A stretch of DNA of 24,094 nt from positions 1 to 24,094 of the IMG/VR virus record IMGVR_UViG_3300008459_000392; one strand, given 5' to 3'. Both the position numbers and the translations under genes were made by a program. This document shows positions 10,515 to 23,977 of this stretch, one piece after another. The notes beneath the pieces are model-generated. The model was given only the letters and a program-made list of their open reading frames with translations. It was not told where the DNA came from and made no database searches. The DNA is from a virus. The stretch's first letter is position 1, and each line of letters begins with the position of its first letter.

Positions 10515-12527
10515 TTATTCCGGCTTCATTTCAATAAGATCAGAATTCGATAGAGAAGTATTATTGTATAGAGTAACGACTTCTTTACCCCAATTACCAT
10601 CGGTAACAGTATAGGATTCACCGAGAGCAGGTGTTATAACAATGAGTTGTGCATTCAATGAGCCATCAGGGTTATACGTATCATAATCTAGAATCAGTTT
10701 TTGGAATGATCCAACTGTCTTTAAATGCACTGCTAGATCATATGTTTTTTCTAGATCTGATTTACCCTGTGCATTATGAAGCTCATATACGATTGCTCTA
10801 CCTTCGGACTTATATCTATTAACGGAAGTGCTCCAGTCGCTGCTACTTAATTCTATATCTCTTGGTTTATAAACACCTTCGATTACAACCAAACGGTTAT
10901 CTTTAAAAGCAGAATCCCTATTGGATCTGATCCTTTTTACGAGTTCGGCATGAGGTTGTAGATTTCTAGCAATCTGCGCTCTTGAAGCAACTGGGATTTC
11001 TGATAGTCTTCCAATTGCTCCTTTACCACCAGTGAATGTAGAAAGAGGAATCGATTTAATAATCTGTGTGCCTAGAGTAATATTATCACTATTTGAAATC
11101 TTAGAATCTGGAACAAAGTTATAAGATCTAATGTCCGGTGCTTGGAATTTCGTATCTCTTGCAGGTCCTCTTGAACCTAAATCAGTTGCACCTCTAAATG
11201 GTTCTTGATTCGAACTATTTACCCTGGATACTGGCATAGGGGTATTCTGAGAATATGTAGGTGATAGTGTACCATTTGATACAGCATTCTGTACAAATAG
11301 TGGATCGTTACGAACACTTTCGCTTCTCATGAAAGCTCTAACTTCAGTTGTCTTTAAATCTTTTGTTGAAATACCAGAAGTTGCTGACGATCTGTTTATA
11401 GCTCTAAGCATATGATCACCAATATCAACCTTTACATCCACAGCACCAAGTGAAGTCTGGTTAAGATATTGATTAAGTGTTGCGGCATCAGGTTTCGCAG
11501 TTTCTGTAGTATCCGTTGCAGTGTTAACTACGGTTCCAGCACTACCACTTGCACCAAGGCTTCCAGCAGTTCCGGCTCTACCAGCTTGTGTTGCTGTATT
11601 CGCATTACCATTTAATGCACCATGGAACGTAGGAGCTGTAACGCCTGCCGTGAATGTGCCAGATGTACCGAATACATTCTTTACGTAAGCAATAACACCT
11701 TCCCCACCGATTGTACCAGTAGCACCGAATACAGATAGATCTGCAGCTGCAATGTTCATATTATTTGAGCTCTGGAACATCTTTGACTTCGAGCTGATGT
11801 AACTGCTTGCTCCAGATGAAAGACGCATATCACCTTCAGATGTAATTCTGGATGCACCTTTCGTGACTACGTTATTGTCACCGAGTGTTGTCGATGTAGA
11901 AGTACCTAGCGTAGTGCTTGAGTGATTGCCTTTTACGATATGACCTACGTTTGCTTCTGTAGTTGTTCTCCATGAACCTGTAACCGATTCAGATTTATTT
12001 TCACCAACGTCTAGATTATAATTACCAGCAACTTTCAGATTGAAATCTCCAGCTACTTCCATATCGACGTTTCCACCATATATGATTGTAGCGTTACCTT
12101 CAATGATAATCTTTTGGTCTTTTGAGATTTGAATCGTCTGTCCAGCAGCTGCAATTGTCATGCTGCCATCTGACTTTAATTCAATACCATTACCACTGTT
12201 ATGACTGAGGATAATTCTTTCGTTACCCGGTGTATCATCCATCTCAAATGTATGACCACTTGCTGTTTTAATAGCACGGTTTCTGGTGTTCATTGATGGG
12301 GATGGTGTATTGGATGATATATCAGTTCCGTTTATACCACCACCTAAAGTAAGAGAAGTTACTTCCGCACCATAGGATGTTTTCGGTAAGCTTGACCCCC
12401 ACCAATCGGGAAACTTTGGATAGACACCAGTTGCATCACCAGTTAAACTCTTGTCCCGTCCTTGTTCTATTACAACTGGACCGAGAGTGCTTATTCTATC
12501 GTTTAGATCGTCATTTACTGTAGTCAT
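10515..12527 (-). CDS. Central spike protein, gp5 beta-helix type, with extra C-terminal domains
   Basis: This 670-residue protein carries the spike part of T4 gp5 on its own. Residues about 85-125 (GHTFEMDDTPGNERIILSHN, then GIELKSDGSMTI) are the typical join between OB-fold and needle in gp5/VgrG proteins. Residues about 125-265 have the short repeating beta pattern (KIIIEGNATIIYGGNVDMEV, GDFNLKVAGNYNLDVGEN) of a triple-stranded beta-helix. No OB-fold or lysozyme is present; those lie in the gene at 14147-15001. Residues about 345-520 are low-complexity and unidentified. The last 150 residues contain VIEGVYKPRD, EGRAIVYELHN and a hydrophobic tail; the layout recalls an M15 peptidase fold lacking its zinc residues, but this is weak. 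An AAGG site precedes the ATG. Between the amidase protein and gp25. Confidence 0.82.
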   Translation of the reverse strand: MTTVNDDLNDRISTLGPVVIEQGRDKSLTGDATGVYPKFPDWWGSSLPKTSYGAEVTSLTLGGGINGTDISSNTPSPSMNTRNRAIKTASGHTFEMDDTPGNERIILSHNSGNGIELKSDGSMTIAAAGQTIQISKDQKIIIEGNATIIYGGNVDMEVAGDFNLKVAGNYNLDVGENKSESVTGSWRTTTEANVGHIVKGNHSSTTLGTSTSTTLGDNNVVTKGASRITSEGDMRLSSGASSYISSKSKMFQSSNNMNIAAADLSVFGATGTIGGEGVIAYVKNVFGTSGTFTAGVTAPTFHGALNGNANTATQAGRAGTAGSLGASGSAGTVVNTATDTTETAKPDAATLNQYLNQTSLGAVDVKVDIGDHMLRAINRSSATSGISTKDLKTTEVRAFMRSESVRNDPLFVQNAVSNGTLSPTYSQNTPMPVSRVNSSNQEPFRGATDLGSRGPARDTKFQAPDIRSYNFVPDSKISNSDNITLGTQIIKSIPLSTFTGGKGAIGRLSEIPVASRAQIARNLQPHAELVKRIRSNRDSAFKDNRLVVIEGVYKPRDIELSSSDWSTSVNRYKSEGRAIVYELHNAQGKSDLEKTYDLAVHLKTVGSFQKLILDYDTYNPDGSLNAQLIVITPALGESYTVTDGNWGKEVVTLYNNTSLSNSDLIEMKPE

Positions 12528-12536
12528 TATACAACC

Positions 12537-14150
12537 TTATGACACTGCGCCAATTGTAGAAGCAAGTTCTGCTCTACTAAACGGACCGTAATTATTATTG
12601 AATTGAACAACGTTTCTTTTGCCGAAAGTATTTAGGATATAATCATCAACGTCAAATCCAGGATCAACCTTACCAAGGTCACTACACTGATAGTGGCCTA
12701 ACACTTGTCCAGATGGGAATACCCTATAGAATACTTCTAAGAAAGCTTTTTGAGCAGCCCATTGTGGATCTGAAATAGATTCTGCAGAGATATACCTATC
12801 TGGATTAGATGTTCCGGATACGCAATTATAACCTGCAATATGTGATATACCAATGCTATATTTGTTATGGCCGTAATCAAGTGCGTGTGCACCTTGTTGG
12901 TTAATGGGTCTACCTCTTTGGATTCTTCCGTCCCTACGAATAATGTAGTGATAACCGCAACCACTAAATCCTCTTTGCTTATGAACTTCGTGGATTTGTT
13001 CTGAACCTACATGAGGCTGATCTATAAAATTTGCAGACCAGTGAATTACTGTTTCAGTAATCTCTCTTGTTGCTGATCTTAACTCAGCTTCAAGTTCTTC
13101 CATTGAAGTAACGAATGTGAATGCGTATCCACCACCACCGGAATTAACTGAAGCAGGAATATCCGGGACAGGGGTAGAGTAAGGGGAGATGGGTGTCGGA
13201 ACGGTATCAGCCCCTTTCCACAGAGAATCTAAATTACCAATAGAAAATATAGGTGAAGAAGAAACCCCAAATGCGTCTAATTCCGGATTAAATTTATTTA
13301 CTAGTGCAGATGCTGAAGTATCAACCTTTGAAAGTTCTTCTTCTAATTCTTCTAAACTTAAATCAGAATATGGTTTTATAAGAACTGCGGCCTCTTTAAA
13401 TTGTTTTGCATCAACTAGAGATATTGCTCTTTTTTGTAATGCAAGAGGTAATGGTTGTTCTCTACGTGTAAGTCTACCGAATACGTATTTCATCGGATTC
13501 GTATTTGCTTGAATTATATCTTTAATAACCTGATTAAAGCCTTGATCTAAAAATGACTTTAAGCTTTGATTTACAATATTTGTGATATTATTAAACTGCT
13601 GTGCAATGCCAGAAGGAACACCATTTGTCTTTTTCGATAATTGGGTTATTGTATTTTGTGCTGCAGTGTCTTTCACCCCATCCGGAGATACAGCTTCAAT
13701 TGCAGTACGTAGTTTATCATATGGTAAATTTGAGACTGTTGCTAAAGAATCCGCTACAGCTTCAGGAGTAGGTAAGGCGTGAACAAATGTGTTTAATCCT
13801 GCATCAATTTCTGCATCTAATCCGGTAATAGATTTTATAGAGTTCTGAGTACCACCTGATAAAGGAGTTATTAGATTAGTCACGCCAGGAGGTTGATCAG
13901 TTAATAACGCTAAGCCTTTATTCGCTACAGAACTAGTTCCGTCACCTGTATTATCAACCTCTTGGGTTAGGCCTTGCCAGCCACCAACTGTTTCATTTAC
14001 GTTTACCCCAATCTTAGTAGAGGTAACGGATTGATAACTCGAAATAGCTTCAGACCCGGCTTTTACAATCTGATCAGCATTTACTCTCTTAGTAAGATTG
14101 GTTAACTGTTGATTTAGATTATTGAGTGTAACCTTAGGTACTTCAATCAT
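12537..14150 (-). CDS. Hub-associated protein with N-acetylmuramoyl-L-alanine amidase domain
   Basis: This protein has 537 residues. Residues 1 to about 335 are helical and of unknown family, probably for attachment to the hub or spike. A short Gly stretch (SGGGGY, 337-342) leads to an amidase_2/PGRP domain (about 345-510) that cuts the bond between muramic acid and L-Ala. The key residues are in place: His370 (VIHWSAN), Tyr400 (GCGYHYIIRRDGRI), His486 (GHYQCSD), Lys494 and Asp496 (KVDPGFD), the same set as the zinc ligands and helper residues of AmpD. Asp replaces the Cys used by T7 lysozyme. Its ATG overlaps the stop of the OB-lysozyme gene (ATGA) and the spike gene follows after 9 bases, so it is made together with both. 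I infer a virion enzyme that opens the cell wall at infection. Confidence 0.88.
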   Translation of the reverse strand: MIEVPKVTLNNLNQQLTNLTKRVNADQIVKAGSEAISSYQSVTSTKIGVNVNETVGGWQGLTQEVDNTGDGTSSVANKGLALLTDQPPGVTNLITPLSGGTQNSIKSITGLDAEIDAGLNTFVHALPTPEAVADSLATVSNLPYDKLRTAIEAVSPDGVKDTAAQNTITQLSKKTNGVPSGIAQQFNNITNIVNQSLKSFLDQGFNQVIKDIIQANTNPMKYVFGRLTRREQPLPLALQKRAISLVDAKQFKEAAVLIKPYSDLSLEELEEELSKVDTSASALVNKFNPELDAFGVSSSPIFSIGNLDSLWKGADTVPTPISPYSTPVPDIPASVNSGGGGYAFTFVTSMEELEAELRSATREITETVIHWSANFIDQPHVGSEQIHEVHKQRGFSGCGYHYIIRRDGRIQRGRPINQQGAHALDYGHNKYSIGISHIAGYNCVSGTSNPDRYISAESISDPQWAAQKAFLEVFYRVFPSGQVLGHYQCSDLGKVDPGFDVDDYILNTFGKRNVVQFNNNYGPFSRAELASTIGAVS

Positions 14151-15001
14151 GATACAAATCTCCTATATGCATCTTCTGCATACGATATTCTTTTTTGTCT
14201 ATGTGTCCCATCACTTCTTTCATAATGTTGATCGAAGTTAGCAGCTGCTTCGGCTGCAGTACGAGAAGCCTTTAATTTAGTAGCAGCTTTTTTTTCGGAG
14301 GTCTGTAGTTCGTACATAAAGAACCCTAATTGACATTCTAATGTAGTATAGTCCTGACCTGTAGAAGAAGCATAGTTTCTTAAATCATTTAATCGCGTAT
14401 CTCGCCACTGAGCAATACCGAAAGACTGTTTACCCTTATCGTTCGGATTATTTGCATTTGGATCGATATTCGCTGTCGATTCTGCTGCAAAATTACCAAC
14501 AATTCCACAAGCTTGTTCCGGGGTAAATCCGTTATTAATAAGGAATCGATATACCTTTTCTGCATTCGTAGAACCTTCTAATGATCCAGGAGCAATTGCA
14601 GTAGCTGAACCTTTATATATTGCAGCGCTTTGACCCGCATCGGCTCCACCACCTCCACCTGATGGCCTTGCACCAGTATAAGCATTAGCCTGATCTGATG
14701 TTGGAACCATTACCTTAGGAATGCTACCTAGTACCAACGGGATCTGTGAATCGGTTCCATCTAAGAATACTCCGAAGACCTGTGCACCATTTGAAATCAT
14801 AGGGGCAGATCCGACACCACCCATTCCTGGTTCTGTAGACGGTAGCATTGTCTGTGCCCAAGGTAAGTCGTAATTCGGAATCTCCTCCCCATGAAGACCG
14901 TACACTCTTATTTGGACTCTTCCTAGAAACAGATCTGCGTCATTATTATTGACCACAGTTCCAAAAAAGAATCTGTTGATATTATCTCCATAAAAACTCA
15001 T
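14147..15001 (-). CDS. gp5: Short gp5: OB-fold plus tail lysozyme, without the beta-helix
   Basis: This 284-residue protein matches the N-terminal and middle parts of gp5, the hub lysozyme. Residues 1 to about 100 form the OB-fold (FGTVVNNNDADLFLGRVQIR, LPWAQTMLPSTEPG, GAQVFGVFLDGTDSQIPLVL). A Gly-rich linker at 114-119 leads to a tail lysozyme domain (about 145-284) of the phage_lysozyme2 type: FLINNGFTPEQACGIVGNFA, Glu174 (AAES) as the likely catalytic acid, FGIAQWRDTRL. This is a different lysozyme family from that of T4 gp5. T4 gp5 has 575 residues because it also carries the needle; here that is encoded separately at 10515-12527. It overlaps both neighbours by four bases (ATGA). Muramidase activity is inferred from the family. 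Confidence 0.87.
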   Translation of the reverse strand: MSFYGDNINRFFFGTVVNNNDADLFLGRVQIRVYGLHGEEIPNYDLPWAQTMLPSTEPGMGGVGSAPMISNGAQVFGVFLDGTDSQIPLVLGSIPKVMVPTSDQANAYTGARPSGGGGGADAGQSAAIYKGSATAIAPGSLEGSTNAEKVYRFLINNGFTPEQACGIVGNFAAESTANIDPNANNPNDKGKQSFGIAQWRDTRLNDLRNYASSTGQDYTTLECQLGFFMYELQTSEKKAATKLKASRTAAEAAANFDQHYERSDGTHRQKRISYAEDAYRRFVS

Positions 15002-18678: not shown

Positions 18679-19266
18679 TTGAGCAATCTATTTCAAACAC
18701 TTGAGATTGAAGCTTTCCGTAAGGGTATTACCCCAAGGACTGCGCAGTCAAGAGAATGGTTTATGAACAAGACGAAGGACCTTAGAAACATCAACAGAAA
18801 CGTGTTGATGAAGGAAACCCCTATTACCCTAAAGAATAGAACTATTATTGGTTCTATGTTTATGTTTTTCTATCAGCCAAAGCATAAAGACACGTTGCCA
18901 TATTATGACTCGTTCCCGTTAGTGATTGTTCTAAAGCCAGCTGAAGGGGGATTCCTAGGATTAAATCTCCACTATCTTCCTCCAGTATTAAGAGCTAAAT
19001 TCTTAGACGCTTTGTTAGAAAATACCAACAATGACAGGTTTGACGAGACCACTAAATTCAATTTAACGTACAATCTACTCGAACGTGCAACCAAACTGAA
19101 GTACTTCGAACCTTGTATCAAACATTACTTAACCGATCACGTTAGAAGCAGATTCGCTTTAGTCGAAGCTCCTGAGTGGGAAATCGCTACGTTCCTACCA
19201 GTTGCAGACTTCCAAAAGGCAAGAGCTTCTACTGTGTGGAAAGACTCTAGAAGAAAGATATCATAA
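18679..19266 (+). CDS. Conserved T4-like phage protein of unknown function
   Basis: This protein has 195 residues and I do not recognise its function. It starts with TTG: an ATG five bases upstream is out of frame and stops at once, while AAGGA lies 8 bases before the TTG. Notable segments are KGITPRTAQSREWFMNKTKD, MFMFFYQPKHKDTLPYYDSF followed by PLVIVLKP, and GGFLGLNLHYLPPVLRAKFL. This style is common to an anonymous family of T4-like phages. In T4 the DNA-end protector gp2 gene is next to gene 4, so a head or DNA-end role is possible, but I could not confirm similarity to gp2. The stop codon shares its last A with the start codon region of the next gene (TAATG). Confidence 0.75.
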   Translation: MSNLFQTLEIEAFRKGITPRTAQSREWFMNKTKDLRNINRNVLMKETPITLKNRTIIGSMFMFFYQPKHKDTLPYYDSFPLVIVLKPAEGGFLGLNLHYLPPVLRAKFLDALLENTNNDRFDETTKFNLTYNLLERATKLKYFEPCIKHYLTDHVRSRFALVEAPEWEIATFLPVADFQKARASTVWKDSRRKIS

Positions 19267-19973
19267 TGGCTTACAGCATCGACCAAATGAAATCTCTCAT
19301 TTCACGTAAAGGTGGAGTATCTGAGGCTAATGTATTTCGTGTAGAATTCCCGTCTTTGCCCGGTGCATCGGCAGAAGAAGTAAACCTTCTTTGTACTCGC
19401 GTGAATATTCCAGGCCAACAAATCCTAACTTATGATAAAGAGATTGGTATCAAGACTGAAAAAGTAGGATATCGTCGCGCGTACGAAGATGTCTCTATGA
19501 GCTTCCTACTATTAAATGATTATGGTATTCGAAAGTATTTTGAAACGTGGATGGGCTATGTTGTTGATCCGAACACGTACGAGATTGGTTATAAGAACGA
19601 GTATATTGCAGGTCAGGTAAAGATTCAGCAACTAAGAAAGGGTATTGGTCTACCGATCTATTCCACACCACTTGGTCTGCCACTACTCCCCTCAGAGATT
19701 CAAAATAGACTTCCGAAATTCGGTCCGTTCGATCTTGCAAGAGGTCAACTCGATCTAAACTATATTACAAATGACCAAGTAGTCTATGAAGTTATTCTTG
19801 AGAACGTATTCCCTACAACTATGACCGGTATTGAACTTGGAAATGCAATTGATGGCGTGCTCGAATTCCAAGTTACTTTCTCTTACACTAAATATACTGC
19901 ACAAAATAAAGAAGCGAACCCTACAGCCGATTTTATAACAACTGGCATAGGTTCTTTGCTAACAAATCTATAA
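19266..19973 (+). CDS. gp54: Tail tube-type protein, probable gp54 tube initiator
   Basis: This 235-residue protein has the tail-tube fold pattern of gp19/gp54: SEANVFRVEFPSLPG near the N-terminus, CTRVNIPGQQILTYDKEIG, YRRAYEDVSMSFLLLNDYGI, KYFETWMGYVVDP, and near the C-terminus VYEVILENVFPTTMTGIELG then LEFQVTFSYTKY. T4 gp54 has 320 residues and gp19 has 163, so length does not decide between them. I prefer gp54, the first tube ring on the baseplate, because it sits among baseplate genes next to gp26 and gp51; tube protein gp19 usually lies with the sheath and portal genes, which are not in the window. Start overlaps the previous stop; gp26 follows after 11 bases. Confidence 0.75.
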   Translation: MAYSIDQMKSLISRKGGVSEANVFRVEFPSLPGASAEEVNLLCTRVNIPGQQILTYDKEIGIKTEKVGYRRAYEDVSMSFLLLNDYGIRKYFETWMGYVVDPNTYEIGYKNEYIAGQVKIQQLRKGIGLPIYSTPLGLPLLPSEIQNRLPKFGPFDLARGQLDLNYITNDQVVYEVILENVFPTTMTGIELGNAIDGVLEFQVTFSYTKYTAQNKEANPTADFITTGIGSLLTNL

Positions 19974-19984
19974 GGATGATTTAA

Positions 19985-20689
19985 ATGGCTCTACCTAAAC
20001 TGAATGACAATCCAAAGTATGATCTTATAATTCCTTCTATGAATAAAAAGGTCAGATACAGACCTTATCTCGTGAAAGAAGAAAAGGTAATGCTAATGGC
20101 TATGGAATCACAAGATAACCAGGCTATGATGAATTCGATTGTCGATACGATTGTCGCGTGCGTGGACGATGATATTGATCGTAAGAAGCTTGCAATGTTT
20201 GATGTTGAATATATGTTTCTTAAGATTCGTTCGAAGTCTGTTGGTGAAACTTCTACTGTAGGTATTAAGTGCACTTCCTGTAATACGCAGAATGATGTTA
20301 CTATCGATATCTCTGCAATGGAGATTGAAGTTCCGACAGTCAATAAAACGATTCAGGTTACACCCGAGATTGCTATTGAAATGAAATGGCCAACGTATGA
20401 AGATATCATAAAGATTGGTTCAACCGGCAATAAACTGACTAAGAACCTATTTTCTATTATCGAGAAATCAATTGAAGCTATCGTAACTGAGAATGAAAGA
20501 ATCTTAGCGAAAGATGTGACCGATAAAGAGCTTGAAGAATTCGTTGAGTCCATGACAAAAGAGCAATTGGATATGCTTGGTGACTTTGTATCGAAGATGC
20601 CTAGATTGAATAAAGATGTTCATTTCGATTGTGTATCATGTAAAGAACATAATCACGTAAAACTGGAAGGTATGACTGATTTTTTTTAA
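19985..20689 (+). CDS. gp26: Baseplate hub assembly protein gp26
   Basis: This 234-residue protein matches the gp26 family (T4_baseplate), needed to build the central hub. The N-terminal NPKYDLIIPSMNKKVRYRPY, then LVKEEKVMLMAMES is the family signature. Two CxxC pairs (Cys96/Cys99 in KCTSCN and Cys216/Cys219 in DCVSCKEHNH) suggest a zinc-binding site; T4 gp26 is a little shorter (208). A ribosome site (AAGGA) lies upstream. The last codons are GAT TTT TTT TAA: the stop directly follows a run of eight T. In the -1 frame the reading continues without a stop into the gp51 frame, so a gp26-gp51 fusion of 300 residues is likely made by frameshifting. This parallels the tail assembly chaperones lambda gpG and gpGT. 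Confidence 0.88.
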   Translation: MALPKLNDNPKYDLIIPSMNKKVRYRPYLVKEEKVMLMAMESQDNQAMMNSIVDTIVACVDDDIDRKKLAMFDVEYMFLKIRSKSVGETSTVGIKCTSCNTQNDVTIDISAMEIEVPTVNKTIQVTPEIAIEMKWPTYEDIIKIGSTGNKLTKNLFSIIEKSIEAIVTENERILAKDVTDKELEEFVESMTKEQLDMLGDFVSKMPRLNKDVHFDCVSCKEHNHVKLEGMTDFF

Positions 20690-20738
20690 TAGCTCTTTCT
20701 CATGAAAATTTAATCAATTACTATAAGGTAAATTTTCA
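20680..20738 (+). promoter_or_regulatory. Programmed -1 frameshift signal at the end of gp26
   Basis: Eight T occur at 20680-20687, so both tRNA pairs at T TTT TTT (20680-20686) can slip back one base without loss of pairing. The zero-frame stop TAA (20687-20689) comes directly after, which would favour slippage. After the slip the codons TTA ATA GCT continue to 20886. A perfect 9-bp inverted repeat (TGAAAATTT at 20703-20711 and AAATTTTCA at 20730-20738) follows and may act as the stimulating hairpin, though its distance is longer than usual. Confidence 0.75.
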
Positions 20739-20742
20739 GTTA

Positions 20743-20886
20743 ATGCAGCACCATCATTATTCGTTAACTGAAATTGAAATGCTGATACCGTGGGAAAGAG
20801 AAATCTATTTGACTTTGTTATTGCAACATATACAAGAAGAAACAGATGCCGCAAAGCAGAGGCAAAGGGATTTAAAACATGGCTGA
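20743..20886 (+). CDS. gp51: gp51-like baseplate hub assembly protein frame
   Basis: From the ATG at 20743 this frame gives 47 residues (MQHHHYSLTEIEMLIPWERE, then IYLTLLLQHIQEE). The block LTEIEMLIPWEREIY is typical of the small gp51 hub assembly proteins of T4-like phages. However, the frame is open further up: codons from 20686 add SHENLINYYKVNFQL, which fits the usual protein better than the bare ATG start. The only ribosome site for the ATG is AAGG about 14 bases upstream, which is too far. I therefore think the main product is the frameshift fusion with gp26 (66 residues from this frame). The end overlaps the tape measure start by 8 bases. Confidence 0.8.
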   Translation: MQHHHYSLTEIEMLIPWEREIYLTLLLQHIQEETDAAKQRQRDLKHG

Positions 20887-23641: not shown

Positions 23642-23715
23642 TGCCCCATCGTCTAGCGGTAGGATATCTGACTTTGAATCAGAAGAGCGCGGTTCGAATC
23701 CTCGTGGGGCATCCA
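23642..23715 (+). tRNA. tRNA-Gln (anticodon TTG)
   Basis: The acceptor stem TGCCCCA pairs with TGGGGCA, followed by discriminator T and an encoded CCA. The anticodon stem TCTGA/TCAGA holds loop CTTTGAA with anticodon TTG at 23674-23676. The U1-A72 pair is the usual Gln identity feature. The T arm has one mismatched pair. Confidence 0.94.
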
Positions 23716-23723
23716 ATTATCAT

Positions 23724-23801
23724 CTGGGTGTAGCTCAGTCTGCGTAGAGTGCTTGCCTTGGAAGCAAGAAGTCGCTGGTTCAAATCCAGTCACCCAGACC
23801 A
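23724..23801 (+). tRNA. tRNA-Pro (anticodon TGG)
   Basis: The acceptor stem CTGGGTG pairs with CACCCAG, with A73 and encoded CCA. The D stem is GCTC/GAGT, the anticodon stem CTTGC/GCAAG and the T stem GCTGG/CCAGT. The loop CTTGGAA puts TGG at 23759-23761, which reads Pro codons. C1-G72 and A73 are known features of bacterial tRNA-Pro. The base after the anticodon is A, where Pro tRNAs normally have G37. Confidence 0.88.
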
Positions 23802-23806
23802 AATAT

Positions 23807-23889
23807 ATCGGTGTAGCGTATAGGTAGCTGGTGCTACCACGGGCCTCCAAAACCCGCCGCAAGGAGTTCGATTCTTCACACCGGTGCCA
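23807..23889 (+). tRNA. tRNA-Trp (anticodon CCA), unusual D arm
   Basis: The acceptor stem ATCGGTG pairs with CACCGGT (one T-G pair), with G73, the normal Trp discriminator, and encoded CCA. The loop CTCCAAA puts CCA at 23847-23849. The length of 83 is about 7 more than usual, all in the D region, where a 6-bp hairpin GGTAGC-TGGT-GCTACC follows seven extra bases. Confidence 0.85.
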
Positions 23890-23895
23890 ACTAAC

Positions 23896-23977
23896 GGTGT
23901 GTGGCCCGGATGGTAAGGGGATGGATTGCAAATCCATAGCACGAAAGTAGTCAGTTCGATTCTGACACACACCTCCA
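23896..23977 (+). tRNA. tRNA-Cys (anticodon GCA), extended variable region
   Basis: The acceptor stem GGTGTGT pairs with ACACACC, with T73, the Cys discriminator, and encoded CCA. The anticodon stem ATGGA/TCCAT holds loop TTGCAAA, with GCA at 23928-23930. The T stem is GTCAG/CTGAC. The variable region has 12 bases (AGCACGAAAGTA) instead of the usual 4 or 5. Confidence 0.86.

Follow-up and report, generated by a model that had tools for sequence, protein, structure and literature searches.

A gp26-type gene and its -1 continuation

The stretch of viral DNA analyzed here (the window) comprises 24,094 nucleotides and corresponds to positions 1 to 24,094 of IMG/VR virus record IMGVR_UViG_3300008459_000392. 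Its gene order runs from a tail tube gene through gp26 and an open reading frame (ORF) in the -1 frame to a putative tape measure gene (Table 1). Window gp26 matches the Pfam family PF12322 (T4_baseplate) at 1.4e-56 and covers positions 5 to 232 of the 282-position profile phrog_150 ("baseplate hub") at 4.7e-58. The last 8 nt of the -1 ORF are shared with the start of the 601-residue ORF; the putative identity of the latter as the tape measure protein is taken mainly from its place and size, and a comparison with T4 gp29 gave no sequence match.

Table 1. Features at the gp26 locus (window coordinates)
Feature	Position	Strand	Basis
Tail tube protein (gp19-like), directly upstream of gp26	19266..19973	+	phrog_45 tail tube, 1.1e-34
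gp26 homologue, 234 aa, predicted short form of the tail assembly chaperone (TAC-N; counterpart of lambda gpG)	19985..20689	+	PF12322, phrog_150, AlphaFold2 model
Shine-Dalgarno-like GGAAGG, possible frameshift stimulator	20665..20670	+	Best anti-SD match in window gp26
Slippery heptamer T_TTT_TTT	20680..20686	+	Sequence; T_TTT_TTN in 40/45 loci; codon-choice statistics
-1 extension, 66 codons plus TGA, predicted C-terminal domain of long chaperone (TAC-NC); elsewhere annotated gp51	20686..20886	+	phrog_634, phrog_150, hhalign
Perfect 10-bp inverted repeat, unsupported as stimulator	20703..20738 (20703-20712 / 20729-20738)	+	Fold energy, spacing, relatives
First ATG of the -1 ORF, unlikely to serve as a start of its own	20743..20745	+	19 codons after slip, within conserved block
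Putative tape measure protein, 601 aa	20879..22684	+	Location and length; phrog_10613 (tape measure) matched weakly, 0.005

The 3' end of gp26 reads GGT ATG ACT GAT TTT TTT TAA and contains a run of eight T (20680-20687), with the stop codon TAA (20687-20689) immediately 3' of the heptamer T_TTT_TTT. At this junction the +1 frame is closed; the -1 frame, blocked by TGA at 20677-20679, opens at 20680 and runs to a TGA at 20884-20886. A slip on the heptamer adds 66 codons (20686-20883) to gp26 and gives a 300-residue fusion. An earlier note on this DNA had described both gp26 ending in GAT TTT TTT TAA inside eight T and a -1 frame open for 66 codons, to 20886, with a gp51 block, and the sequence bears it out on each count. 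For the -1 ORF, phrog_634 ("baseplate hub assembly catalyst") gives a match at 6.7e-26, and in phrog_150 the ORF covers positions 231 to 278 of 282, exactly where the gp26 match stops. Because the two parts match successive positions, phrog_150 already includes proteins in which gp26 and the C-terminal domain are joined.

Elsewhere in the window, parts of T4 gp5 are split across 10515-15001 (-), with the OB domain and tail lysozyme in 14147-15001 (-; PF06714, PF18013), the C-terminal needle in 10515-12527 (-; PF22178, PF06715), and a separate gene with an Amidase_2 domain (12537-14150, -) between them. A 1,406-residue DUF4815 protein (PF16075; 527-4747, -) has a Cys-led terminal segment (GCFTADTLIEMADGTTKQISHM...). 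This C-terminal segment looks like a Hint/intein-type domain, and Pfam gave no match to it at 0.01. Three tRNA genes (Gln, Pro, and Cys) lie at 23642-23977 (+), and the opposite-strand ORFs over them are probably spurious.

Conservation and selection at the junction

We scored 45 junctions, the window included, with relatives drawn from IMG/VR and from annotated phage records; many of these loci are closely related, and they represent about 20 distinct lineages. At all 45, the -1 frame continues without a stop into a common C-terminal domain, whose consensus is roughly SHxxLxxYYxxNFxLMxHHxYSxTEIExMxPWEREIY. The taxa include Kyanoviridae, Pootjesviridae, Menderavirus, Schizotequatrovirus, Cinqassovirus, pelagiphage and methylophage relatives, and Ackermannviridae. 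The motif T_TTT_TTN stands at the junction in 40 of the 45 loci, with the zero-frame stop following immediately or 1 to 8 codons on, and is retained even in genes that otherwise favor C-ending codons. Such an alignment of relatives, for the T run and the -1 frame, was one check that the earlier note had proposed, and its outcome favors a -1 frameshift. In all 20 representatives, the codon before the phenylalanines ends in T and the first Phe codon is TTT, which, given the genes' own codon usage, has a joint P of ~1e-9 (log10 P of about -9), the lineages being partly non-independent.

An eight-T run is a classic indel site, so we considered whether a homopolymer error in sequencing or assembly had split one intact gene. 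An independent contig (L001), however, carries an identical gp26 and the same junction, and all relatives, many of them with other run lengths, show the gp26 stop together with a continuation in the -1 frame. Comparison with L001 and with these divergent relatives refutes an error of this kind, to which we give practically no credence. Judged from the aligned sequences, the junction is neither a product of chance nor a sequencing slip.

RNA polymerase, rather than the ribosome, might slip on the eight T and add one U to the mRNA; the window and many relatives have eight consecutive T, and one extra T yields the same -1 reading. Many lineages, however, have only six T (T_TTT_TTC/A/G), and Ackermannviridae have three to five, and the -1 frame is still kept. 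What is conserved is the in-frame heptamer and not the length of the T run, and we regard polymerase slippage as very unlikely. On T_TTT_TTT, tRNA-Phe would re-pair without mismatch in the P site as well as the A site, which would let a ribosome slip there.

At five Ackermannviridae-type loci (L064, L071, L082, L083, and L084, including related Vibrio phages), the frame is kept with a weaker, non-canonical site. Examples are A_ATT_TTC, G_GTT_TTC, G_GCT_TTC, and A_CTT_TTY, in which only the A-site Phe codon re-pairs well; the L071 site was assigned by reading the sequence, the automated scoring having taken a neighboring site. One outlier is Alishewanella phage Slicko01 (L073, 2366-3320), where the gp26 homologue matches PF12322 at 2.6e-13 and the -1 frame is closed. 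The gap before its next long gene is filled by a +1-frame ORF that the C-domain profile does not recognize, and which might be a +1 version or unrelated.

In nine other loci (L013, L014, L017, L021, L024, L029, L054, L068, and L077), approximately 280 to 360 nt separate the end of the -1 ORF from the next long ORF. The corresponding gap holds annotated hypothetical genes in the related records Mosig, Melnitz-2, OLIVR5, and RHph_I1_9.

We also weighed whether gp51 is instead a separate small protein, made from its own start or by termination-reinitiation after the gp26 stop, with no frameshift. Public records do annotate a separate small ORF at the -1 position, and an ATG overlaps the gp26 stop in V07, QD01, Moby, and RHph_I1_9; in some relatives with a TAATG start right behind the slip site, a free C-domain could be made as well. 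Against this, the first start codon in the window lies 19 codons into the conserved domain. Its sole purine-rich leader is an AAGG ending at 20728, poorly placed at 14 nt from the ATG, and a second perfect 10-bp repeat (20734-20743 / 20764-20773) would, if paired, span the ATG at 20743-20745. These features agree with the earlier note, which had judged the gp51 ATG to lack a well-placed ribosome site. The ATG is missing in several lineages, its position holding other residues in L002, L003, L025-type, and C48C1 loci, and T4 has the C-domain in fused form only. Within the 18 codons after the slip, changes number 28, 19, and 48 at -1-frame codon positions 1, 2, and 3 (P = 0.001; seven groups), a count that includes one misaligned pair and becomes 15, 7, and 36 without it (six clusters). 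Because changes concentrate at position 3, the bases upstream of ATG 20743 appear to be kept as protein code. Plain initiation at this ATG would not explain such codon-phase selection 5' of it, and we consider a separate gp51 highly improbable.

Candidate stimulators of the proposed shift

Two elements near the slip site were evaluated as possible stimulators. Downstream, the earlier note had pointed to a perfect 9-bp inverted repeat; the repeat exists, and is 10 bp long rather than 9, but it is not a convincing stimulator. It is AT-rich, has a fold energy of -4.9 kcal/mol, and begins 16 nt 3' of the slip site. The 74-nt region 3' of the slip folds only marginally better than its shuffles (z = -1.5), fold z averages -1.7 across 27 loci, which is a slight trend only, and the relatives showed no conserved stem-loop at a fixed position downstream. 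We therefore rejected the repeat as weak, badly spaced, and unconserved.

Upstream, the Shine-Dalgarno-like GGAAGG ends 9 nt before the heptamer, and in dnaX an SD-like stimulator lies upstream of the slip site at comparable spacing. Several relatives have GGAGGG at about the same spacing (9 nt upstream), with a combined P of 0.006 over related sequences. The element is absent in the Ackermannviridae, L009, and L025 groups. In the window, synonymous codon shuffles equaled GGAAGG in 132 of 500 cases, and amino acid constraint alone could produce it there.

T4 gp26 and gp51 and the tail assembly chaperones

In T4, gp26 (208 aa) and gp51 (249 aa) are encoded on opposite strands. PF12322 matches T4 gp26 at 8.8e-64 and also residues 1 to 201 of T4 gp51 at 4.2e-55, and T4 gp51 matches phrog_150 from end to end (1.8e-87). 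In hhalign comparisons, a profile of the conceptual -1 fusion aligned with the T4-type gp51 profile over 243 columns, straight through the junction (E = 2.9e-28). The C-domain family alone matched the C terminus of T4 gp51 (E = 6.9e-9), and the C-domain gave no match to T4 gp26, whose C terminus, GLKEFFELL, lies just beyond the expected slip point. On these profile matches, T4 gp51 joins a gp26-like domain, in frame, to the C-terminal domain of the -1 ORF. Since gp51 contains its own gp26-like domain, T4 has the short form (gp26) and the long form (gp51) as two genes. Unlinked gp26 and gp51 in a relative had been named in the earlier note as grounds for abandoning its proposal; they are found in T4, and they support it, gp51 having its own gp26-like domain.

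The layout with separate genes on opposite strands is shared by T4, Krischvirus, Biquartavirus, and Lazarusvirus, and Pseudotevenvirus has short and long forms as tandem genes on the same strand. The frameshift layout is kept in Schizotequatrovirus and Cinqassovirus, which are likewise Straboviridae. In a tree of the N-domain, the gp51 copies group together (100/100), the split gp26 copies make up a second group (88/86, unstarred, on long branches), and the frameshift genes stand apart from the split copies (98/92); this unrooted tree is compatible with a single split into two genes. A history in which Straboviridae switched once from frameshifting to gene duplication, while Ackermannviridae shift on a non-canonical site, is possible, and we offer it only tentatively, as less than an even bet. 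The Ackermannviridae slip site and the placement of this switch would be the unpublished parts of the present results, if any are.

An AlphaFold2 model of window gp26 (pLDDT 86) was compared with solved structures using Foldseek. The most probable PDB match was the HK97 tail assembly chaperone 2ob9 (chain B, probability 0.87, E = 0.56; 3.7 Å over 62 columns), which is not significant by E-value; chain A of 2ob9 followed at 0.28, and the remaining listed matches were at 0.12 or below. A T4-type gp51 model did not find 2ob9, and a sequence search against solved structures gave no match. The modeled resemblance of gp26 to the HK97 chaperone is weak and no more than suggestive. T4 gp51 is reported to be needed for assembly and absent from the particle, as expected of such a chaperone, and reports on gp26 disagree (PMC3004832).

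The earlier note had read gp26 and gp51 as a chaperone pair of the lambda G/GT type, and conservation, selection, gene order, and the T4 gp51 fusion all support this reading. We put the probability at roughly 0.9 that gp26 and the -1 ORF are one tail assembly chaperone gene that makes its short and long forms by -1 slippage. Most ribosomes would end translation at the TAA that follows GAT TTT TTT, giving the short form of 234 residues, and we infer that a smaller share move back by one base on T_TTT_TTT and read the 66 further codons, yielding the 300-residue long form. By analogy with lambda gpG/gpGT, the N-domain common to both forms would coat the product of the adjacent putative tape measure gene, the C-domain of the long form would bring in tail tube protein from the gene directly upstream, and neither form would stay in the virion.

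The core finding is right and is already known in substance, as is evident from a 2022 paper, papers of 2024 and 2025 citing it, and an Acinetobacter phage record that labels gp26 and gp51 as tape measure protein assembly chaperones. The abstract of the 2022 paper reportedly names T4 genes 26 and 51. That paper (Vladimirov, Gautam & Davidson, Virology 2022, 566:9-15) is cited as having identified the tail assembly chaperones of T4-like phages. A 2024 paper summarizing it (PMC10885494) describes some T4-like phages as having one short gene and one fused long gene, with no frameshifting, and a 2025 paper (PMC12846349) cites it for poly-T slip sites that TAC-N genes of T4-like phages contain. A 2016 review had held the G-T frameshift to be conserved in long-tailed phages "except T4" (PMC5009743). 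The earlier note's recasting of two T4 "hub assembly" proteins thus stands as a reading but not as a novelty, having been published in 2022 (Vladimirov et al.). It would account for the many T4-like genomes in which gp51 is either absent or listed as a detached hypothetical ORF. We suggest that gp26 and gp51 here be annotated as a single gene for a tail assembly chaperone, expressed with ribosomal slippage, rather than as subunits of the baseplate hub.

Compared with known systems, the mechanism would be that of lambda G/GT, with the differences that this phage has T_TTT_TTT with a stop directly behind it and a contractile tail. Phage Adele (Vandenendeviridae/Andersonviridae; PMC12846349) likewise has a -1 shift on a poly-T motif where TAC-N ends, and its extension is listed as a hypothetical gene, but its group belongs to other phage families and uses a GTTTTT motif. 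The T4-like chaperones of Vladimirov et al. are of the same gene family; this uncultured T4-like phage is a further member, and nothing in the present analysis distinguishes it. T4 gp26 is homologous to the short form, and T4 gp51 is homologous over its whole length to the predicted frameshift product; T4 differs in having two separate genes where this phage has both forms in one. Recoding in one lineage would be matched by gene duplication in another.
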